Below are positions 6,637 through 20,081 of a stretch of 23,428 nt of DNA, one piece after another. The notes beneath the pieces are model-generated. The model made no database searches. It worked only from the letters and a program-made list of their open reading frames with translations, and was not told the DNA's origin. This stretch comes from a virus: the IMG/VR virus record IMGVR_UViG_3300013093_000290, positions 1 to 23,428 of that record; one strand, written 5' to 3'. Each line of letters opens with the position of its first letter. Positions within the stretch are counted from its first letter, which is position 1. A program made the position numbers and the translations under genes.

Positions 6637-9042
6637 CTAGTAATAAGATACTTTGCGTTTGAAGTATTGTTGTTCATCTTCCATGTCAGAGTTAAGACGA
6701 ATAAATCCGCCTTGCCTGAATCTAAGCATTGCTTGACTGGTCGAATCGACTAAGTCATCATGGTCGCCGTTGGGGAAAGATGCAAGCTCTTCTACCAATT
6801 CTTCCGCCCATCTTGTTGTGGGACACCATACAAAACCAGATGCAAACAAATCTGATATAGCGTTTACACGGGCTATCTTATCATTTCCTTTGCTTGGTGT
6901 ATATTCAGAAAGCGGTATTCCCATTGCTCTTAGCTCATAAATAAGCGGTGCACCAGCGGCTTTCTTTTCAATAATTAAAGAATCAGGTTGCCATTCTTTA
7001 TACATTTGTTGCGCCTTGGCTTTGAGAGCTGGAAACTCCATTCGTTGTTTAAACGCATCAAGCAAGATAATATTGGCTTGTTCTTGACCTTTATCGTTTG
7101 GATGGTAAAAAACACCCCAAGTTGTACAAGCTGAATAGTCAGCCCGGGAAGATTTTTCAAACGCAGTATCCCAAGATTGAATAATGTATTCGCATGGTGG
7201 AGGATTGTCTTTGTCCCAAAGTCTCCACATATCCCTTTTAATAATAGCGCCTTCTTCAGAGGTTGGATTTTGCTGGTATTGGGCTTCCCACTTCGATACG
7301 GGAAGTTCAGCTTTAATTGCCTCTAATTCTTCTTGAGACCAAAACTCTGACCATAGGGGTTTACCCGATGGATACAGCGCTGGAAATTCTATAACTTCCC
7401 ACTCGCTACTTCCATCCCGTTTAAACGATGCATCTAATATTTGACCTGTTAAATCTCTTTTAGACCATCTGGTGTTATGGGAAACAATACCATTAGCTAT
7501 AAAATTTTCAGTGCGGTCTATTTCAACATCAAATACCTCTTTTTGCCCTGAAAAAACAATACTAACTATTGGGTCTACTGTGAAGTCTGAGATACGATGC
7601 AGCTCGTTCAAGTATGCTTGCTGTCTTTCCGTATCCAACTGCAAGGTTGCAGTCATTGCAGAGTAATCCTCTGACTTTTCCTGTCTCATGGCAGTGGTCG
7701 ATGCACAATTTACCATTCCAATGGGCACGAGTATTTTTTGTTGTTGGTGGGTTACCGCATATATCACATTGGTTATGACACCCCTTAACCATTGCTTCAT
7801 ACTGTTCAACGGTAATACCATAACGGTGTTTGATGCGGTGTTTACGGGCTTCTTCTGATGATTTTTTGGGAGTATATTGTTTGCCGTAATGTGTAGCGCA
7901 TAAACCACGGCTTGCAATTTTTCTATTACATCCTTCCATTTCGCAAGTAATACCTTTCCACTTTCCATGATGCCCCAATGGTTTTCGTGGTGCGTCTGGA
8001 TTTTTTCGGTGGTAGCTGTCGCTTGCTTGGCATGGTCCACATTTTCCAGCTTTTGTTTTTGCCCTTGAAGGTCTGTTACATCCTTCAGTGATACAAGTAA
8101 ATCTCCCGCTTGTAAATGTTTTAATCTGGTCCACTCTAATACTCCTTCATTCATTACAAGAAACGGATGTCTCTCATTTGCTTGAAGTATTTTACCAGAT
8201 TGTGTTTGTACTGTATATATGGAATCAAAACCATTTGACTTCCAGTTGTTTACTTTGCTAGTAGATAGTTTTCCATTATCAAAGGTGGCAACTACATCGT
8301 CTTTTTTTATATTTTTTAATAAAGTATTTGTTCCGTCAGCCATTAATACGTTTGTATCGCCAACCATACACATTACTATAATAATAGCTCCGCCTGGTTG
8401 TAGACGTTGTCTAGGACCTGAGTTATACCATTCATAGACACGGTCATAAACCGCAGGATTGCCTAGCATGGCTTCTTGTTCGCTATGCGGGTCATCAATG
8501 ATTAATACATCAGCGCCTTTTCCTGTTACCGCTCCGCCCACTCCAATAGCAAAATAGTCCCCCCCTGCATGGGTATTCCAACGACCGGCGGCTTTTGAAT
8601 CGCTTGATAATTTAGTATTAAAAACCGATTGATAGTCAGACGTATTGACAAGATTACGAACCTTGCGACCGAATCCAACTGCCAGTTCAGCGGTGTGGGC
8701 AGTTTGAATGATTTTTTTATTTGGGAACTTTCCAAGATACCAAGAAGGGAAAAGGTATGAAGCAAACTCGGACTTTGTATGTCTAGGTGGCATGTTGATA
8801 ATGAGTCGTTTAAGAGAGCCTTCCGCAACTCGTTCAAATGCATTAGCCATGATTGCGTGGTGCTCTCCAGCAATAAATGCGCTCCACATAGCCTGTACAA
8901 ACGGTAAGAAGTTTTCCCTGCATCGCTCATTTTGATCCGCCTTTAATACTTGTTGAATTTTCTTTATATTCGGGTGGTCCTTGGGAAGCGCATTAAGCAT
9001 TTCCCTATAGTTACGTATTTCAGTCTTAGTTAAAACTGGCAT
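6637..9042 (-). CDS. terL: Terminase large subunit precursor with in-frame intein
   Basis: The packaging motor ATPase and nuclease is encoded as an 801-residue precursor. N-extein (1-224): Walker A-like PPRHTKSE at 85-92 and Walker B VLIIDDPHS at 179-187. The intein occupies residues 225-523, inserted exactly between IIIVM and TRW, a conserved strand of the ATPase domain. C-extein (524-801): TRWSKRDLTG, then an RNase H-like nuclease with D625 (QSWDTA), D635, E692 (LIIEKK) and the NGDHDDLVD acidic cluster at 758-766. Spliced length would be 502 residues, normal for the family. Protein splicing must occur for function. The gene follows the small terminase and winged-helix genes and precedes portal. 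Confidence 0.93.
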   Translation of the reverse strand: MPVLTKTEIRNYREMLNALPKDHPNIKKIQQVLKADQNERCRENFLPFVQAMWSAFIAGEHHAIMANAFERVAEGSLKRLIINMPPRHTKSEFASYLFPSWYLGKFPNKKIIQTAHTAELAVGFGRKVRNLVNTSDYQSVFNTKLSSDSKAAGRWNTHAGGDYFAIGVGGAVTGKGADVLIIDDPHSEQEAMLGNPAVYDRVYEWYNSGPRQRLQPGGAIIIVMCMVGDTNVLMADGTNTLLKNIKKDDVVATFDNGKLSTSKVNNWKSNGFDSIYTVQTQSGKILQANERHPFLVMNEGVLEWTRLKHLQAGDLLVSLKDVTDLQGQKQKLENVDHAKQATATTEKIQTHHENHWGIMESGKVLLAKWKDVIEKLQAVVYALHITANNILPKNHQKKPVNTASNTVMVLPLNSMKQWLRGVITNVIYAVTHQQQKILVPIGMVNCASTTAMRQEKSEDYSAMTATLQLDTERQQAYLNELHRISDFTVDPIVSIVFSGQKEVFDVEIDRTENFIANGIVSHNTRWSKRDLTGQILDASFKRDGSSEWEVIEFPALYPSGKPLWSEFWSQEELEAIKAELPVSKWEAQYQQNPTSEEGAIIKRDMWRLWDKDNPPPCEYIIQSWDTAFEKSSRADYSACTTWGVFYHPNDKGQEQANIILLDAFKQRMEFPALKAKAQQMYKEWQPDSLIIEKKAAGAPLIYELRAMGIPLSEYTPSKGNDKIARVNAISDLFASGFVWCPTTRWAEELVEELASFPNGDHDDLVDSTSQAMLRFRQGGFIRLNSDMEDEQQYFKRKVSYY
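7562..8134 (-). CDS. EndoVII-type HNH endonuclease nested out of frame in the intein
   Basis: This 190-residue protein lies entirely inside the intein DNA but in the -1 frame relative to terminase. It begins with GTG at 8132-8134, with AAGGAG seven bases upstream. It has two Cys-rich zinc-binding modules (C14, C19, C32, C35 and C64, C69, C79, H82), each with an EGCNR signature. The endonuclease VII-like HNH domain follows: YGITVEQYEAM, CDICG at 123-127, LCIDHCHETGKVRGLLCNDCN at 143-163 with H147, H149 and N163, and the closing helix SILERAASYLR. All metal-binding and catalytic residues are intact, which argues against a chance frame. It probably cleaves intein-free terL alleles to drive intein homing. 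Its ends overlap codons of intein strands, so those bases encode two proteins. Confidence 0.88.
   Translation of the reverse strand: MDQIKTFTSGRFTCITEGCNRPSRAKTKAGKCGPCQASDSYHRKNPDAPRKPLGHHGKWKGITCEMEGCNRKIASRGLCATHYGKQYTPKKSSEEARKHRIKHRYGITVEQYEAMVKGCHNQCDICGNPPTTKNTRAHWNGKLCIDHCHETGKVRGLLCNDCNLAVGYGKTASILERAASYLRLHSRPNS
8142..8147 (-). promoter_or_regulatory. Internal ribosome binding site for the nested endonuclease
   Basis: AAGGAG on the minus strand lies seven bases before the GTG at 8132-8134, inside the intein coding frame. This supports independent initiation of the nested gene on the terminase mRNA. I found no convincing slippery heptamer that would favour frameshifting instead. Confidence 0.75.
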
Positions 9043-11845: not shown

Positions 11846-13321
11846 ATGTTACCAATCGAACGTCAACTCTCTCTTATCCCGCTCAATCAACTCAATGCGG
11901 TGCTTTTATCTAAATCGATTTGCGCTCAAACATCAAAGGATAGCGCAGTCGAGCAAGTGTCTATCCTGATCAATGATGGGCACATCACATTAGACCAGGT
12001 CAAATCAACCAGGTCGAACGGTGCAACCGTAGTCGCATCAAATGTAACGATACCGGATGACGTACGTGCTCAAATCACAAAGGCATCAAGCGAGGTGAGC
12101 AATGCGGTCGCTGAGATTCAGAGACTGCAATTTGTTATTGACAACACCATAAGATCGCAGAGCCGTAATCATTCAGCGATGGAGAATAATTTTGATGACC
12201 TGTCTCGCCGTTTAAACGCTAAGATCGATGCGGTGCAGGGCGTTGATTACAACATTGTCAAGGGGTCGATTGTCTCTGAGGTATCAAAACTGTTTGATGA
12301 ATTCAGGACTGTCGCAACTCCCGAGCAATTGGTTGAGGTTGCCAAAATTGTTCCCAAGACTACCCACAAAATTGCAAAGGATGTATTCGGAGACATCTGC
12401 ACCTACAGGTACAACGGTGAGACGATTGACTTCTCATCGTTCGAGGTCGATGTGTGGAATGACCCCGATGCACCGGCTCTCGTTGCCGATTACAACTTCA
12501 ACCCCGAGCACTTGCATCAAGCACTTATCGCACTCGATGATCCACTGCCTGATAACGTGTGGCTCGCCGGTGAGCGTGGCACTGGTAAGACCGAATTCGT
12601 GGCTCAACTTGCCAACCGCCTGGGTCGCCGATTGTTCCGAGTCAACTTTGATGAGGCTCTCGAGCGTGCCGAGTTTATCGGGGGTAACACAATTGAAAAT
12701 TCAAACGTGGTTTGGAAGCCCGGTGTTATCACTCAAGCGATTCAGCATCCAGGTGCAATCATTCTGCTAGATGAAATTGGTTTTGCACGTGCTCAAAATC
12801 TCGCCGTCTTGCATGCCCTGTGCGAGCGCTCACCGCACCGCTCAATCGTGATCAGCGAGACCGGTCAACGCATTCCAGTCGCTTCGCATGTCGTGTTTTT
12901 CGGCGCTGACAACTCGAACGGTCATGGTGACCAGTCAGGCAACTTCGCCGGTGTACGTGATCAAAATACGGCATTCCTCGACCGCTTCTCATTCACTCTG
13001 CGATTTGATTATTTAGAGGAAAGTGACGAAGTTGAATTGATTGTGAACCGCACCGGCTTGCCGTTCGATGCTACTTTGACACTAGTTCGCTTTGCGAATG
13101 TGGCACGTGAGAAAGCACGTGCAGGGTTGCTGACACAACCGCCGAGCATACGTCAACTTTTTGCCTGGGCAAGAGCGATCAAAAAGGGAGTACCAGTCGC
13201 AATTGCATTTAAGAATTCAATCGTTAACAAATTTCCGAGTGACTGCGAGAGCGAATTGCTTGGAGTGTTTAGCGCCACGATTGATGTTGACAATTTGAAA
13301 TCATTTTTAATTAAGGGGTAA
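11846..13321 (+). CDS. CobS/MoxR-type AAA+ ATPase
   Basis: This is a 491-residue protein with a long N-terminal region (1-215, partly coiled-coil around 75-130) and a C-terminal AAA+ domain. The domain has Walker A GERGTGKT (242-249), Walker B AIILLDEIG (304-312), sensor 1 FFGADNSN (351-358) and an arginine finger in LDRF (R380). FIGGNTIENSNVVWKPG between the Walker motifs resembles CobS and MoxR proteins, which act with VWA-domain partners to remodel or load metal into a target. No CobN chelatase subunit is present, so cobalamin synthesis is unlikely. AGGAGG precedes the ATG. The CobT-like partners follow directly, four bases after the stop. Confidence 0.85.
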   Translation: MLPIERQLSLIPLNQLNAVLLSKSICAQTSKDSAVEQVSILINDGHITLDQVKSTRSNGATVVASNVTIPDDVRAQITKASSEVSNAVAEIQRLQFVIDNTIRSQSRNHSAMENNFDDLSRRLNAKIDAVQGVDYNIVKGSIVSEVSKLFDEFRTVATPEQLVEVAKIVPKTTHKIAKDVFGDICTYRYNGETIDFSSFEVDVWNDPDAPALVADYNFNPEHLHQALIALDDPLPDNVWLAGERGTGKTEFVAQLANRLGRRLFRVNFDEALERAEFIGGNTIENSNVVWKPGVITQAIQHPGAIILLDEIGFARAQNLAVLHALCERSPHRSIVISETGQRIPVASHVVFFGADNSNGHGDQSGNFAGVRDQNTAFLDRFSFTLRFDYLEESDEVELIVNRTGLPFDATLTLVRFANVAREKARAGLLTQPPSIRQLFAWARAIKKGVPVAIAFKNSIVNKFPSDCESELLGVFSATIDVDNLKSFLIKG

Positions 13322-13324
13322 ATT

Positions 13325-14308
13325 ATGTTAGGCATAAACGTAAAACGTGGGGTTGAGACTACCCTGGAGCGAGTGTTCAAATCCAGTAACAACGAATTTG
13401 GCAAGCTTGAATTCCACTGGTCGGGCACGACCGCCGGTATTAATTTTTCTCGCTATGCGTATAAAACCGATGCGACTATTATTTTTCCAAGCCTTGATGA
13501 AAATTCAAACATCGACAATGGGACATTTACTAATCTAATCGGTTATGCATTACACGAACTAGGTCATGCTTGGTTCACAGAGAATGCTCCCTGGGATAAG
13601 GCACGTAATGAATACGGTGCATTCGTCAACAACCTGATCAACGGTCTTGAAGACCCTCGCATTGAGCGTAAGGTCATTGAATCCGGTTATGCACCTAATT
13701 CTCGAGTGCTATTTGAAAACTTAACAAATTCAATTCTTAAACGCAGTGGGTATGTGGAGCCGGACGATAAGAAAAATATTCCTTTTATGCTTGCTATTGA
13801 GGGTCGCCGTTTAAACGGCTACATCATCGAGGCTGAAAGTGTGCTGTTGAATTCACCTTACGCCAAGCATTTAAACTGGGCGCTTAAGCGTGCAAAGGAT
13901 GCAAAGGATACAAAGTCAATTGTCAAGATTGCCGTTGAACTGTATAAGCGCTTGCTTGAAGACGAACAAAAAGCAAAGGATAAGCCCGAGGACGGCAAGC
14001 AGGGCAAGGATGACAATCCTGTAGAGGGCACTTCCGCAAACGATACTCAAGCACCATGTGAGCATGGTGAACCCGGTGAGTCTAGTGATGCACCTAGTGA
14101 ATCCGGTGAATCCGGTGAACCCGGTGAGCCTAGCGATGCGACTGACAAGCCTAGCAACTCCTCAATTAAATCATTTGAGGGAGGCAGAGAGGTCGAGCCT
14201 AGTCAATTTATAAAGGACATTCTTAAATCTCACTCAACCACTGCCGATAGAGTCAGCCCAAGACCATCGGCGCTTAAACCAACATACTCAGCATTTATTT
14301 GGAGTTAA
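13325..14308 (+). CDS. CobT-like N-terminal half with HExxH motif
   Basis: This 327-residue protein carries HELGH at residues 77-81 and NLINGLEDPRIERK at 103-116. That combination is known from CobT-like and DUF2201-type proteins, which combine a metallopeptidase-like domain with a VWA domain. Residues 210-280 are a low-complexity acidic linker with SESGESGEPGEPSDA-type repeats, the region that in CobT joins the two halves. Here translation stops shortly after the linker at TAA 14306-14308. The VWA half is a separate gene starting two bases later in another frame. The result is either a true two-subunit arrangement or a split of a single ancestral gene. Confidence 0.75.
   Translation: MLGINVKRGVETTLERVFKSSNNEFGKLEFHWSGTTAGINFSRYAYKTDATIIFPSLDENSNIDNGTFTNLIGYALHELGHAWFTENAPWDKARNEYGAFVNNLINGLEDPRIERKVIESGYAPNSRVLFENLTNSILKRSGYVEPDDKKNIPFMLAIEGRRLNGYIIEAESVLLNSPYAKHLNWALKRAKDAKDTKSIVKIAVELYKRLLEDEQKAKDKPEDGKQGKDDNPVEGTSANDTQAPCEHGEPGESSDAPSESGESGEPGEPSDATDKPSNSSIKSFEGGREVEPSQFIKDILKSHSTTADRVSPRPSALKPTYSAFIWS
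14066..14140 (+). repeat. Short tandem repeats encoding the acidic linker
   Basis: Imperfect 9-base units of the form GGTGAAYCC or GGTGAGYCT repeat across this stretch and encode Gly-Glu-Ser/Pro units of the linker. It is prone to slippage and could vary in length between relatives. Confidence 0.7.
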
Positions 14309-14309
14309 C

Positions 14310-15122
14310 ATGCCTCACCTCAAAAAATCAGACTGTGAAAATAATTTTTCTGTGCAATACAACTTACAACCGCATGGGCTTGGAGCAACTCGAGCCAACC
14401 TGCTTAAACTGTTGCGTTCTCTTGACCTGGTCTCCTGGTCAACGCATGAGGAGTCGGGGCGCTTAGACCGTAAAGCGTTTACACGCTTTGCAGTTGGTTC
14501 CACTGCAATATTTTCAAAGCGCCGGGTTGCTGAGGCTGAGACCAGTGCGGTATCTATTTTGGTTGATTGCTCCGGTTCAATGCAGGACTATGATCGCATT
14601 GTTGTTGCAGAGTCTTTAACGATTCAGCTTGCCCGGTTACTTGATAAGGCTAGGGTTGAATTTACTATCAATGGATTCTCCGGTCGAGGAGGCTATAAAA
14701 GTGTTGAAGCCGGTGGCGCTAACGGCGCTCACTCCCAAGACATTCGAGTGGAGCGAGTCGATTACTTAGCATTCAAGACCTGGAAAGAGAATCTCGCTAA
14801 GGCAAGCGCCAAGCTCGGCGGTATGGCTAAGTGCGCCGGAGGCTCTACCCCGGATTACTCAGGTATCCGAATCAAGCTCGAGGAACTCGCACTAAGAGAT
14901 GAGAGTCGCAAAATTATGTTTTTATTGACCGATGCCGATGGGTACGACAGTAACCACATGAAACATTTGCAAGCGTTTGCCGATAAGCAAAACATAAAAA
15001 TTATTGCTATCGGTATTGGTCGCACCAATGTCAAGGCTTGCTTTACGGTAAGCGATGATGTTCAAAATGTGCACGACCTTGCGAGTGCATCATTCAACAA
15101 GCTCCTCAAGGAACTTGCGTGA
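14310..15122 (+). CDS. CobT-like VWA-domain protein
   Basis: This 270-residue protein has a VWA domain with a complete metal-ion-dependent adhesion site: DCSGS (D86, S88, S90), GGSTPDYSG (T180) and LTDADG (D208). The segment before it (SGRLDRKAFTRFAVGSTAIFSKR, about 49-71) is typical of CobT-like proteins just ahead of the VWA fold. GGAG lies five bases before the ATG and overlaps the end of the previous gene, so initiation is coupled to termination there. It should work with the AAA+ ATPase (11846-13321) and the HExxH protein. The target is unknown. Confidence 0.82.
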   Translation: MPHLKKSDCENNFSVQYNLQPHGLGATRANLLKLLRSLDLVSWSTHEESGRLDRKAFTRFAVGSTAIFSKRRVAEAETSAVSILVDCSGSMQDYDRIVVAESLTIQLARLLDKARVEFTINGFSGRGGYKSVEAGGANGAHSQDIRVERVDYLAFKTWKENLAKASAKLGGMAKCAGGSTPDYSGIRIKLEELALRDESRKIMFLLTDADGYDSNHMKHLQAFADKQNIKIIAIGIGRTNVKACFTVSDDVQNVHDLASASFNKLLKELA

Positions 15123-15997: not shown

Positions 15998-16032
15998 AAA
16001 CCCTCCCTTGGAAACATCGGAGGGTTTTTTTT
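15998..16032 (+). terminator. Intrinsic terminator of rightward block 1
   Basis: A perfect 9-bp stem, AAACCCTCC (15998-16006) and GGAGGGTTT (16019-16027), with a 12-base loop is followed by a run of T to 16032. It lies 33 bases after the last rightward gene. Confidence 0.88.
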
Positions 16033-16075
16033 CGTCTGTAAATTGTTTGCTACGTTGCTACGCCGTTTAAACGCT

Positions 16076-17752
16076 TTAGAATGAATCTCTAACTTCGTAG
16101 TACGTGCCTGTTACTTTGTTGTATCCAAGCTTGGTCTCGCCCTGCGTTCCGATCCAACGGTAGCGACATTTCCAAACCGCCATCTCTACCATGTTTTCTT
16201 TGCCTCGGTGAATGGTAATGCCACAATCAGCCTTAGCCCACCATGCCATTGATCCTGAGATTGCCATGCCGTCCGGGCGGGGTAAATCCATGCCTGACCT
16301 GGTTATCTTAGCCGGATGCGCTACAAACCACACATGTACACCGTAAGCCTTAGCGAATGCCTGAACCCTGGTCAGCATGTTGCTGATAAATTCAGTCTCT
16401 GATTGACCTCCCTTGTTATCGATGTAGTTGTATGGATCAATGACCAATCCTCGAATGCCTGTTCGAGCCACTGCAACCTTTGCCCTGTCAAGAATTGATT
16501 CAATGGTTGCCGGTTCTACGCTCTCAGAATCTAGAAACATAAAATGTTCTTCAACCCATTTAAACGCCTCATCCTTATCCCGCTCGGTCATCCTGTGCGA
16601 TCCGTCAAAGAACCTTTTTTCTTTGTAAATCTCCATTAATCTAGAAATGTGAATCTCAGGCTGATTCTCAAATGAGCATAGCGCAAATTTCCAATCATGT
16701 GAGCGACCCAAATTAACCATAAGCTGATCCACAAAGTTGGATTTGCCTGACGATGGATATCCTGTCACGATTGTGAGTTGTCCTTCCGCAACGGTATAAA
16801 TTTCATCTACGTTTGAATAACCTGTTGATGTTCCGCTTCCCGTGCCTTTGACGTATAAGTCGTTTAAACGGTCTGCAAATTTGCTGGCTGATGATAAACC
16901 TGCAACTGGATAAGGTTGAGCGCCATTGATGATTTCAATAACTTTATCCTTGCCTTCTGTCAAAAGAACTTCGTTTAAATCTTTTTTGTCAAATTCAACA
17001 AGACGACATCTGTCCTTTCCTATGCGCCTTGCAAGTTCTTCTGCCAATGCTTGACCAGGCACATCTGTATCGGTTGCAATAACAATAAAAGGAACAGACT
17101 CGAGAACATCAAATCCATTCCAAATGTAACTGAATTTTTTATCTTCGCTTGCATCGATCTTGCCATCGGATACTTTCATTGGTGCGCCACTGGGTACAGA
17201 TAGAACATTCGGTATACCGCATTCCATGAGTGACAATGCATCAATCTCACCCTCAACGATAACAATGGGAGAGTCTGTAATGACTTTATCGATGCCAAAA
17301 AATTCTTGAGCGCCTCCAATGTCCTGAGTGAAATCTTTGGATTCAATGCTTCTGTATTTGGCTGATACCATTTTGCCGTTTTTAAAATACGGAAATCCTA
17401 TCGCATCGGTCTTCTTGTTTAAACGAGCAAAGAATTTTTGAGCCGAGAACAATTGCATTGCATCTGCGGTTGTTTTTGATATGCCTCGAGTAGAAAGAAA
17501 ATCATAATGTTGTGGTTGTAAAAATTCTATTTCTTTGATGGATTGCATAATTTTTTCCTGTACATATTTTTTTTTAATTTCAACTGCGCCACTGATTTGG
17601 CAATGATGACAATGAAAAACCCAACGATCATCCTTACGGTCGATGCTCAGTTCTTTGAGGTTTTGTTTCTTGCGCTCATGTGAGCAATTGGGACATATCG
17701 CCCGCAGATGTTTATCTACGTGCAAAGAAGAGACGTACTCTTCAACATTCAT
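16076..17752 (-). CDS. Primase-helicase (T7 gp4-like)
   Basis: This 558-residue fusion makes RNA primers and unwinds DNA at the phage fork. It has an N-terminal zinc ribbon (C20, C23, C48, C51) and a TOPRIM primase core with VEGEIDALS (about 166-174) and ATDTDVPGQ (226-234). The C-terminal RecA-like helicase domain has Walker A GYPSSGKS (331-338), LVIDPYNY as Walker B region, and HPAK and ISGSMAWWAKAD segments. The length is close to T7 gp4 (566). It is encoded opposite to the flanking blocks, 10 bp after a small HNH gene and probably co-transcribed with it. GTTTAAAC occurs twice inside (16862, 17417), encoding Leu-Asn each time. Confidence 0.92.
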   Translation of the reverse strand: MNVEEYVSSLHVDKHLRAICPNCSHERKKQNLKELSIDRKDDRWVFHCHHCQISGAVEIKKKYVQEKIMQSIKEIEFLQPQHYDFLSTRGISKTTADAMQLFSAQKFFARLNKKTDAIGFPYFKNGKMVSAKYRSIESKDFTQDIGGAQEFFGIDKVITDSPIVIVEGEIDALSLMECGIPNVLSVPSGAPMKVSDGKIDASEDKKFSYIWNGFDVLESVPFIVIATDTDVPGQALAEELARRIGKDRCRLVEFDKKDLNEVLLTEGKDKVIEIINGAQPYPVAGLSSASKFADRLNDLYVKGTGSGTSTGYSNVDEIYTVAEGQLTIVTGYPSSGKSNFVDQLMVNLGRSHDWKFALCSFENQPEIHISRLMEIYKEKRFFDGSHRMTERDKDEAFKWVEEHFMFLDSESVEPATIESILDRAKVAVARTGIRGLVIDPYNYIDNKGGQSETEFISNMLTRVQAFAKAYGVHVWFVAHPAKITRSGMDLPRPDGMAISGSMAWWAKADCGITIHRGKENMVEMAVWKCRYRWIGTQGETKLGYNKVTGTYYEVRDSF

Positions 17753-17762
17753 ATTAAGCCTC

Positions 17763-17987
17763 TTACCGTTTGTTATCTGATTTATTTGCTTTGGGAGAAC
17801 GTAATCTTAGATTCCCTTTGCTAGACAGTCCGCCTGTTTTAATTGGCTTGATATGGTCTATGTTTTTACCATCCCTGTCGATGCCTTCCTTGTCGTACAT
17901 CCTTCTTGCACGTTGTCTCTCTATTTGTCCTTTGTCATCGCCCCTTTTCAGTTGCGTTTGATATTCTTGTTTGTAATCTCTTGGCAT
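17763..17987 (-). CDS. Small HNH endonuclease
   Basis: This 74-residue protein (MPRDYKQEYQTQLKRG) has a compact HNH motif: IDHIKPIKTGG (about 43-53) followed by NLRLRSPKANKSDNKR, with DH and the downstream Asn and Lys residues typical of phage HNH proteins. No zinc-binding Cys pairs are present. I chose the ATG at 17985-17987, five bases after AAAGGAG. The GTG two codons upstream overlaps the ribosome site. It sits directly upstream of primase-helicase. It may be a free-standing homing endonuclease or serve replication. Confidence 0.75.
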   Translation of the reverse strand: MPRDYKQEYQTQLKRGDDKGQIERQRARRMYDKEGIDRDGKNIDHIKPIKTGGLSSKGNLRLRSPKANKSDNKR

Positions 17988-18016
17988 GTCCACTCCTTTG
18001 TTGATAAGATTTTATA

Positions 18017-18047
18017 CCCCGGCGGGGGATTTCACCTAAAGGCTCCC
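18017..18047 (-). promoter_or_regulatory. GC-rich hairpins in the leader of the HNH-primase unit
   Basis: On the minus strand GGGGGA/TCCCCC encloses a short loop, and CCCC-GCC-GGGG (about 18017-18027) is followed at once by TATAAA. A weak -35 (TTTAGG) lies 18 bases before the TATAAA. The palindrome would fall in the promoter spacer, a possible operator. Confidence 0.35.
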
Positions 18048-18261
18048 CCTACCCCACAGAGTATGAGAGAGGTTTCACCGCCCGGTAAGGGCATCTACAT
18101 GTTAATTTCTTAACCCCCAGACTTGTAGATTCGGCTAGTCCTACGGATTTTTCGGGAGTTGCACCCTAGCTAACGCATACCGTATAACCCTTTTATTCCA
18201 CGCAGTCAGGTTGAACTCTTGCTATCGTGTGGAGTACGGCTGACGTAAGACGTATAGATAA

Positions 18262-18384
18262 TAAAAAAGCCGTTTAGCCATACACTCTGGTCGTAGCTCT
18301 CTCCAATATACTTTCCACGAAATATTGGACAAAGCAGAGTGCATGATTAAACGGCTTAACTAACCTATTGCCTACGACAGCAAC
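18262..18384 (-). ncRNA. Candidate structured small RNA with possible kissing interaction
   Basis: Three nested complementary pairs are visible: 18267-18276 with 18348-18357 (10 bp), 18283-18289 with 18335-18341 (7 bp) and 18303-18309 with 18322-18328 (7 bp). Three more pairs lie between the first two. On the minus strand the outer stem runs into a T-rich tract (about 18262-18268), as in an intrinsic terminator. At the 5' end TTGC/GCAA (18380-18383 with 18368-18371) makes a hairpin whose loop GTCGTAG is perfectly complementary to CTACGAC in an internal loop (18290-18296). A sigma70 promoter at 18391-18420 would start transcription at the first base of that hairpin. The predicted length is about 120 nt. 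The RNA family is not recognised. Confidence 0.72.
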
Positions 18385-18390
18385 GGAATT

Positions 18391-18420
18391 AGTATATCAA
18401 ATAATTTTCGTTCGTGTCAA
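18391..18420 (-). promoter_or_regulatory. Sigma70 promoter for the leftward small RNA
   Basis: On the minus strand TTGACA (18415-18420) and TATACT (18391-18396) are separated by 18 bases. The expected start lies near 18384, exactly where the folded region begins. Confidence 0.75.
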
Positions 18421-18501
18421 TCCCAAGTAAAAATATTTGTAGTCCTAAAACCAATGGACGTTTAAACTGCTTATGCATTTACTCTGCATTACCAGCGTCT
18501 C

Positions 18502-18531
18502 AAAAAAAAAGGAGCGCTGTTTAAACGCTCC
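18502..18531 (-). terminator. Intrinsic terminator, leftward
   Basis: On the minus strand GGAGCG (18526-18531) pairs with CGCTCC (18511-18516) across a 9-base loop and is followed by nine T residues (18502-18510). The loop contains GTTTAAAC (18519-18526). It probably ends the transcript of the RusA-like gene. Confidence 0.85.
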
Positions 18532-18561
18532 GAAAGTCTGGCAACTAACAATAAAAATAAT

Positions 18562-18590
18562 TTGACAAATGCAAACACGAACGGTATAAT
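18562..18590 (+). promoter_or_regulatory. Consensus sigma70 promoter, rightward
   Basis: TTGACA (18562-18567), a 17-base spacer and TATAAT (18585-18590) match the consensus at all 12 positions. Transcription would start near 18597. Confidence 0.85.
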
Positions 18591-18596
18591 ACAATC

Positions 18597-18670
18597 ACTT
18601 CAACATGATTAAGCCTCCTGTTAAAGAGACCTCGGTCGGAACAGAGCCTCCCTATGCGGAGGCTTTTTTC
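18597..18670 (+). ncRNA. Candidate 73-nt small RNA with CCUCC elements
   Basis: A short transcript would run from the consensus promoter to the terminator at 18645-18669. It contains no convincing reading frame. It carries AAGCCTCC twice (18611-18618 and, as AGCCTCC, 18645-18651), both able to pair with GGAGGCT in the terminator. The free upstream copy resembles the 16S anti-Shine-Dalgarno sequence. CCTCCTGTTAA (18614-18624) is complementary, apart from one bulged base, to the ribosome site of the nuclease gene at 19179. It could be a trans-acting RNA or an attenuated leader. Confidence 0.6.
18645..18669 (+). terminator. Intrinsic terminator of the rightward small RNA
   Basis: AGCCTCC (18645-18651) and GGAGGCT (18658-18664) form a 7-bp stem with a 6-base loop, followed by a T-run to 18669. 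Confidence 0.88.
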
Positions 18671-18771
18671 TTATGGGTTGTTGGTGCTCACATGAAGCAG
18701 TGTTTCCCATTCTCCAAGATCGATTTCTCTAACTTGAAATACTGTCGCTAACACAGTACACACCAACGCAT

Positions 18772-19131
18772 TCATTGTAATTGTTTAACTTCTATCTCGC
18801 ACCTGGGATTTTCTTTATCCACGCCCATCCAATAGATATGTTTCTCTTTAACCTGACGGTCGTTCTCATAAGCAACGCCTTGTAACAAATCCAATATAAG
18901 AGATTCATCAAGATCAGGTCGCCTTGATGCATACCAAATGCGAATGGTTACCACAACATCATTCCAAATCAATCTACTTGCAGGCACATTGCATTGACGT
19001 TTAAACGACTCAGCATACGCCCGTGCCTTGTCCGATTTTATCGAAGCAAGACGACTTCCAAACTTCACAATCTTACGACTGTTTGCTTTTGAGCAAGGCT
19101 CACCATATATTTTTAATGATAGTGTTTGCAT
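18772..19131 (-). CDS. rusA: RusA-like Holliday junction resolvase
   Basis: This 119-residue protein matches RusA: an N-terminal GEPCSKANSRK strand-loop, then RRPDLDES (D73, D75), LILDLLQGVAYENDRQVKEK with D81, D91 and K95, and a final IEVKQL strand. The usual DxDN reads DLDE here. RusA dimers cut four-way junctions, which helps resolve replication and recombination intermediates before packaging. It is encoded divergently from the nuclease gene at 19179, with 47 bp between them. Its transcript probably ends at the terminator at 18502-18531. Confidence 0.85.
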   Translation of the reverse strand: MQTLSLKIYGEPCSKANSRKIVKFGSRLASIKSDKARAYAESFKRQCNVPASRLIWNDVVVTIRIWYASRRPDLDESLILDLLQGVAYENDRQVKEKHIYWMGVDKENPRCEIEVKQLQ

Positions 19132-19178
19132 GTGCGTAAAAGTTGTGTTAGCATTATGGTTCTTAACAAGGAGGACTC

Positions 19179-20081
19179 ATGAAAATTACAAACAAGTTTA
19201 ACGTACCTGAGACGTTAATGGCATTGGCTAGTAAGGAATACTATTCCAAGGGTAAGGCTGATTACTCAGTGACAGAGATCATGTCACCACCGAGAATTCA
19301 GCGCTTACGATCTAGACATTATAAGGACATGGAACAAGATGTGAGCGATATGCTTTGGTCTCTTTTAGGGTCTGCATTGCATGTGGTAGCAGAACGTTCT
19401 GAGATACCGAATCATATCAATGAAGAGCGTTTGTTTTTAGATGTTGATGGTGTAACCTTATCCGGTGCGATTGATTTACAACACATTGATGGTAAGAACG
19501 TACAGATTACAGATTACAAATTCACAAGCGCATGGGCGCTCAGAGAAGACAAGATTGAGTGGATTCAGCAACAGAACATTTACGGCTACATGGTTGAAAA
19601 GCTTAAAGGTTTAAACGTTACATCATTGAGGATTTGTGCTTTCGTCAGGGACTGGGCAAGACGAGAGGCGCAAAGGAATCCCGATTATCCGCAAGCGCCA
19701 ATACAGATTGTTGATATTCCGCTTTGGAATACTGAGCAGACAGAGGCTTATATAAAAGAGCGCTTAGAAGCTCACAGAAACGCCAAGGTGAGCGCAGATT
19801 GGAACGAGGAGTTACCTGAGTGCACCAACGATGAAAAATGGATTAGAGAAGAGAAATTTGCCTTGAAAAAAGAGGGTCGCAAGACCGCCGTTAAACTTTT
19901 TGACAATGAGGCTGATGCAAAAAATCACATCAATACATTTGCCGAAAAGGACAGACCGGTTTATTTTATTGAGCATAGAAAAGGAGAGCCAATACGATGT
20001 GTAAATAATTTTTGTGGTGTTAATCAATGGTGTTCACAATACCAACAATATTTAAAGGAGCAAGAAAATGACAGTGTTTAA
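19179..20081 (+). CDS. PD-(D/E)XK nuclease, RecB/Cas4-like
   Basis: This 300-residue protein has the exonuclease signature of the PD-(D/E)XK superfamily: GSALHVVAER (H68), LSGAIDL (D99), QITDYKF (D112, K114) and IQQQNIYGYM (the QxxxY motif, about 130-137). Near the C-terminus three cysteines (CVNNFCGVNQWC) recall the iron-sulfur site of AddB/Cas4-type nucleases, although an N-terminal fourth cysteine is not evident. It is probably the 5'-3' exonuclease partner of the annealing protein that follows with a 14-bp overlap. AAGGAGG gives a strong ribosome site, which may be targeted by the small RNA at 18597-18670. Confidence 0.82.
   Translation: MKITNKFNVPETLMALASKEYYSKGKADYSVTEIMSPPRIQRLRSRHYKDMEQDVSDMLWSLLGSALHVVAERSEIPNHINEERLFLDVDGVTLSGAIDLQHIDGKNVQITDYKFTSAWALREDKIEWIQQQNIYGYMVEKLKGLNVTSLRICAFVRDWARREAQRNPDYPQAPIQIVDIPLWNTEQTEAYIKERLEAHRNAKVSADWNEELPECTNDEKWIREEKFALKKEGRKTAVKLFDNEADAKNHINTFAEKDRPVYFIEHRKGEPIRCVNNFCGVNQWCSQYQQYLKEQENDSV

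Follow-up and report, generated by a model that had tools for sequence, protein, structure and literature searches.

The minus strand of a 23.4-kb virus record (IMG/VR IMGVR_UViG_3300013093_000290; the window hereafter means its whole analysed length of 23,428 nucleotides) carries a promoter, a 5' hairpin, a nested hairpin and a U-run, all found between positions 18420 and 18262. We consider it slightly more likely than not that these elements form an independent phage RNA of about 120 nt with its own promoter and terminator, closed by a pseudoknot between two strands designated K5 and K3, which heads a two-RNA cassette and acts in trans as a scaffold or decoy. Covariation among the sequences of relatives shows the pairing of its helices P1, P2/P3 and K, and the RNA family appears to be undescribed.

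The RNA locus in the window

The locus and its surroundings comprise the following features, in the direction of transcription.

18511..18531, minus strand: terminator 5' of the RNA promoter, predicted to end leftward RusA transcription (terminator scan)
18391..18420, minus strand: sigma70 promoter, TTGACA-18 nt-TATACT with TG before the -10 element (11/12 consensus match)
18258..18396, minus strand: whole RNA locus as found by covariance model R1 (35.8 bits, E = 7.6e-7)
18367..18384, minus strand: P1, the 5' hairpin at the predicted transcript start, with K5 in its loop (folding; P1 covariation in relatives)
18372..18378, minus strand: K5, GUCGUAG, loop strand of P1 and partner of K3 (sequence, folding, covariation)
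18267..18357, minus strand: P2/P3, the long terminator hairpin with an inner hairpin (z = -6.15; covariation in relatives)
18290..18296, minus strand: K3, CUACGAC, 3' internal strand immediately next to P3 (sequence, folding, covariation)
18263..18268, minus strand: U-run of the intrinsic terminator, the predicted transcript end (sequence; a U-run follows the stem in relatives too)
18004..18242, minus strand: RNA2, second conserved noncoding stretch, directly 3' of the RNA and before the HNH gene (conserved in relatives)
17763..17993, minus strand: next gene, a small HNH-like protein (phrog_4590; HNH Pfam match weak, below cut-off)
16076..17752, minus strand: primase-helicase gene, after the HNH-like gene (domain match)

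The original prediction, made from the letters alone, had named a minus-strand sigma70 promoter, a 5' hairpin at the predicted start, nested helices and a terminal stem with a T-run, and each of these was borne out. The P1 stem pairs 18384-18379 with 18372-18367 and opens at the expected transcript start, and the nested helices (18357-18348/18276-18267 and 18346-18336/18288-18278, plus two inner ones) belong to a 124-nt RNA with a minimum free energy of -49.7 kcal/mol, against -28.6 +/- 3.4 for dinucleotide shuffles (z = -6.15, 0/200). The G+C-rich hairpin followed by a U-run, as in an intrinsic terminator, is conserved in relatives; our simple terminator scan, which covers loops of 3-8 nt only, does not have the RNA's own terminator among its listed sites. 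Together, these signals predict an RNA of about 120 nt with a promoter and a terminator of its own.

Further upstream, on the plus strand, a promoter with a 12/12 consensus match is followed about 75 nt on by a terminator (18562-18672), which predicts a further short RNA transcribed in the opposite direction. The region is conserved in many relatives, with the stretch AAGCCTCC kept, as judged by eye. A pairing between the rightward and leftward RNAs (ATGATTAA), also spotted by eye, was dropped as not conserved.

Covariation of the helices and the K5:K3 pairing

The match between the 5' loop and a bulged 3'-side strand, to which the original prediction had drawn attention, is an exact 7-nt complement (GTCGTAG, 18378-18372, with CTACGAC, 18296-18290), and such a complement arose by chance in 234 of 200,000 trials in which loop and bulge were composition-shuffled. 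The K sequences vary among relatives, and every one has its matching complement: GTGGAAAC, GTGGCAAC, GTGGTAA, TTGATAC, GTGACAG, TTGACTGT, GGCTTGGT, CGTCGAAGT and others. Compensatory change keeps the match. All 17 hand-annotated members are self-complementary (0/20,000 permutations), which is weak taken alone because these strings were picked for complementarity. Even with search patterns that left K5 unconstrained, each of the 93 distinct sequences that extend far enough upstream has a K5 that complements K3 over at least 6 nt.

In alignment A1 (MAFFT, 14 core members, the window left out), 95.9% of cells were paired and 18 pairs had changes on both sides, with none of 500 shuffles as good; the K helix had both-side changes at 4/7 pairs. 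Alignment A3, of 99 sequences with a median pairwise identity of 62% (minimum 41%), gave 97.7% of cells paired and both-side changes in 21 pairs and 367 cells (0/500 shuffles), against slid controls at or below about 50%. Helix by helix, K had 98.8% of cells paired with both-side changes at 4/7 pairs, P2/P3 had 98.7% with 14/19, and P1 kept 87.5% of its pairs in the 99 relatives, with both-side changes at 3/3 scored pairs. Pair 28-119 of A3 takes all four Watson-Crick types (GC 32, AU 31, CG 22, UA 9). Changes in the homologues, which the original prediction had named as the place where its fold could fail, include compensatory ones in all these helices.

Relatives, gene context and the second RNA

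A nucleotide search of window positions 16000-19200 against phage records returned zero relatives, and blastn with the intergenic region matched the neighbours but not the RNA itself, so a structure-led search was needed. Searching with the primase-helicase gave 80 related loci per scan, the scans heavily overlapping, and most of these loci retain the gene order exo, RusA, intergenic region, HNH-like, helicase; folding of their intergenic regions revealed the RNA. Of 82 distinct upstream regions, a descriptor search identified about 25 that have the promoter, P1 carrying K5 and the long terminator hairpin carrying K3. The covariance search that had been proposed as a check was carried out with a model, R1, built from A1 with the K pairs left out and hence free of the window. 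It finds a single match in the window, and on 840 kb of relatives no locus has more than one match at E ~1e-15 or lower, these matches lying where the RNA is expected; there are weaker antisense matches, for which the near-palindromic stem accounts.

A DNA pattern derived from P4 and K3, biased to a CCCC-GGGG hairpin subfamily outside which the window lies, matched at least 120 viral contigs and none of the contigs among 84,980 bacterial and archaeal species (257 Gb of genomes). At this pattern, at least 120 contigs of environmental phages, and no sequenced bacterial genome, hold the covarying pseudoknot tied to a terminator. A second DNA pattern matched 12 stretches, and the plasmids searched gave no match. 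Most of the RNA-carrying loci are metagenome fragments; among deposited phage records, the metagenomic genome MW202545, whose RNA region is annotated as hypothetical proteins, was the sole match in all three queries. Two such annotated products, UOF78434 and UOF78433 (MW202545.1), lie over the RNA cassette and are probably spurious. At the curated gathering score, Rfam 15 matched the RNA neither in the window nor in relatives, in keeping with the claim of a new small RNA of unrecognised family, and loose thresholds, applied to the window, yielded nothing above chance level. Full-text literature searches, within whose reach few subscription papers fall, found no description of the RNA.

The genes beside the RNA differ from phage to phage. 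Terminase, exonuclease, RusA, helicase and portal genes are each close to some copies and missing beside others, and other neighbours, read by eye, are phosphoesterase-like, ParB-like, 2OG-oxygenase-like and terminase small subunit-like proteins. Both neighbours are co-directional with the RNA in 41/93 loci; the next supported ORF is convergent in loci L290, L292, L296, L300 and L301, of which the L301 ORF may be spurious. Since neighbour genes vary and some next genes are convergent, an independent RNA cassette is likelier than the leader of one operon. That the RNA is so widespread in phages whose genes differ suggests that it is of general use during infection. In the window, the RNA does precede the HNH-helicase genes, which it may additionally regulate.

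The original prediction is supported as to a small RNA with this fold and pairing; what it overlooked is a second conserved RNA directly downstream. RNA2 (about 240 nt) is conserved in L141, L144, L145, L080, L139 and L077, in varying gene contexts, and is present after the terminator in most carriers examined, L067 and L038 being two in which no second noncoding stretch was seen there. The single-sequence folding energy of the window's RNA2 is not below that of shuffles (z 0.46). It matches nothing in Rfam at gathering score, and a group I intron, considered as a candidate, was dropped for want of an Rfam match. The promoter 5' of the pseudoknot RNA is a general feature (best upstream match 9.0/12 against 6.15 shuffled in 91 relatives, usually 12-17 nt before K5), whereas none was seen between terminator and RNA2, where relatives average 4.2/12. 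In L300 and L301, RNA2 has its own terminator behind it; these two loci also have a large insertion inside one RNA2 hairpin. A helix AUCUACA/UGUAGAU in RNA2 seems to covary, and a pseudoknot there seems likely by eye.

RNA2 comes in several types: that of the window (CGTACTCCRCACGA...GGAAGAAAAGGGT), others, and, in L302, the Rfam family Betaproteobacteria-1 (RF02932), which lies directly 3' of the RNA and scores 100.8 bits. The window has no match to this family (gathering score 49.4 bits). In about 44 helicase-clade loci, a count based on a short motif that Rfam confirmed in six loci, five of them within the slot test, the Betaproteobacteria-1 motif occupies the slot and the pseudoknot RNA is absent. 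RF02932 matches in L020, L050, L031, L005, L059, L012 and L302 lie in phage genomes, mostly upstream of HNH-helicase genes. Betaproteobacteria-1 is thus likewise a structured, phage-borne RNA that shares the cassette or the slot, but it has a different fold and lacks the terminator module of the window RNA. For this orphan family, the RNA described here provides a context, as its members can share the cassette.

Possible action of the RNA and competing explanations

We envisage that transcription from the host-type sigma70 promoter would begin at the P1 hairpin and that the long P2/P3 hairpin with its U-run would cause intrinsic termination. Pairing of K5, in the P1 loop, with K3, the junction strand next to P3, would lock both ends of the RNA in one compact pseudoknot. 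Transcription past the terminator would yield RNA2, which lacks a separate promoter; the arrangement is visible in the sequences, and the read-through is what we infer from it. During infection, the RNA could then serve in trans as a stable protein-binding scaffold or decoy, a role proposed because its shape and not its sequence is conserved, almost nothing in it is single-stranded, and its neighbours vary. We think that it is this kind of conservation, and only this, that points to such a function; as a counterpoint, in the window and the helicase clade the cassette stands between a promoter and replication genes. A CsrA decoy acting through a GGA in the P1 loop was ruled out, since several members, including the window, have no GGA. 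A more elaborate version, in which a self-terminating pseudoknot RNA is joined to an interchangeable second RNA and its 5' loop pairs either with K3, in the short product, or with a segment past the terminator, in the read-through product, is a tentative idea that we would sooner doubt than accept. If it is true, terminated and read-through products would fold differently, and the cassette would represent a new class of phage noncoding machine.

The position of the cassette also suits a cis-acting attenuator, in which the pseudoknotted terminator of a 5' leader sets transcription into RNA2 and the HNH-helicase or another operon, with the 5' strand of the read-through RNA re-pairing with the segment just past the terminator; we regard this combined scheme as rather unlikely. 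It would account for the lack of a visible promoter before RNA2 and for the co-directional neighbours, and in L067 about 13 nt separate the terminator from the start codon (ATG) of the following ORF. Complementarity between the 5' strand and the post-terminator segment scored 14.48 against 12.65 +/- 0.52 (0/400) in 27 members with a K5 other than GTGGAA, and K5 position -1 covaries with that segment (p ~0.001), both uncorrected for relatedness. This pairing is suggestive only, since it is significant just with the extended segment and the non-GTGGAA members; an earlier, narrower test was indistinguishable from swapped controls, and the window's own alternative pairing is weak, at 6 bp. Moreover, the post-terminator segment is transcribed after the termination decision, no antiterminator was seen by eye among the members read, downstream genes are highly diverse and in several loci convergent, and RNA2 ends in terminators of its own in L300 and L301. 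HK022 put RNAs and lambda-type leaders are likewise structured and lie just past a strong promoter, and the window RNA resembles them in its closeness to early or replication genes; put-type antiterminators render RNA polymerase resistant to terminators further along. A put RNA, however, consists of two simple stem-loops without a terminator of its own, while the window RNA has one and sits in unrelated contexts. Type III toxin-antitoxin RNAs (ToxI and relatives) are also pseudoknotted RNAs followed by a terminator; they are tandemly repeated and precede an endoribonuclease gene, whereas the window gave one R1 match, showed no evident tandem repeats, and has no toxin gene after the RNA.

As for the pseudoknot itself, we infer that the pairing lies inside one molecule, and covariation is equally compatible with, and blind to, pairing between molecules. 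K5 and K3 might accordingly bridge separate RNAs in a dimer or ring, which we hold to be improbable. With 7-17 nt (median 11), the linker between K5 and P2 is short against a stem of about 20 bp, which makes the intramolecular fold tight but possible; lengths roughly fit if P1 and the K helix stack alongside P2/P3, K3 meets P3 with zero spare nucleotides in aligned members, and we know of no ring-forming partner. More improbable still is a plain intrinsic terminator, or protein-bound DNA repeats, with the role of the RNA limited to termination. The strong U-run terminator would fit, and K5 and K3 might represent a repeated DNA site, but P1, K and P2/P3 covary as antiparallel RNA helices, and a strong promoter lies at a roughly fixed distance 5' of them, none of which a plain terminator requires. 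The original prediction had likened the RNA to the packaging RNAs of phi29-like phages, an analogy that our results do not support, a packaging RNA working with terminase being scarcely credible. The resemblance lies in a roughly similar size, phage origin and loop-mediated long-range pairing, and a terminase large subunit gene is on the fetched stretch in about 30 of 93 distinct loci, often some 2 kb off. In phi29 pRNA, however, two hairpin loops are joined between molecules and serve the packaging motor, whereas K3 is no hairpin loop but a junction strand beside the terminator stem. The RNA's genomic place varies: many loci have no terminase match on the fetched stretch and carry the RNA in replication or recombination regions, and the window's terminase gene is about 9 kb away. 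No Rfam family was matched at gathering score.

Elsewhere in the window, the terminase large subunit gene (6637-9042, minus strand) is split by an intein (Pfam PF14890) at residues 247-523, and an ORF overlapping it (7562-8134) looks by eye like an HNH protein. On the plus strand, 11846-15122 encodes a MoxR/CbbQ-type AAA ATPase and, after it, metallopeptidase-like and von Willebrand-like proteins. The palindrome GTTTAAAC, by its appearance a signal or protein-binding site shared across the clade, has 24 copies in the window against 0.55 expected. In 768 kb of helicase-clade relatives (L002-L081) there are 726 copies where about 14 would be expected, the next palindromic octamer reaching 117; the palindrome recurs about once per kb, within and outside genes, and is mostly missing from other RNA-carrying phages.
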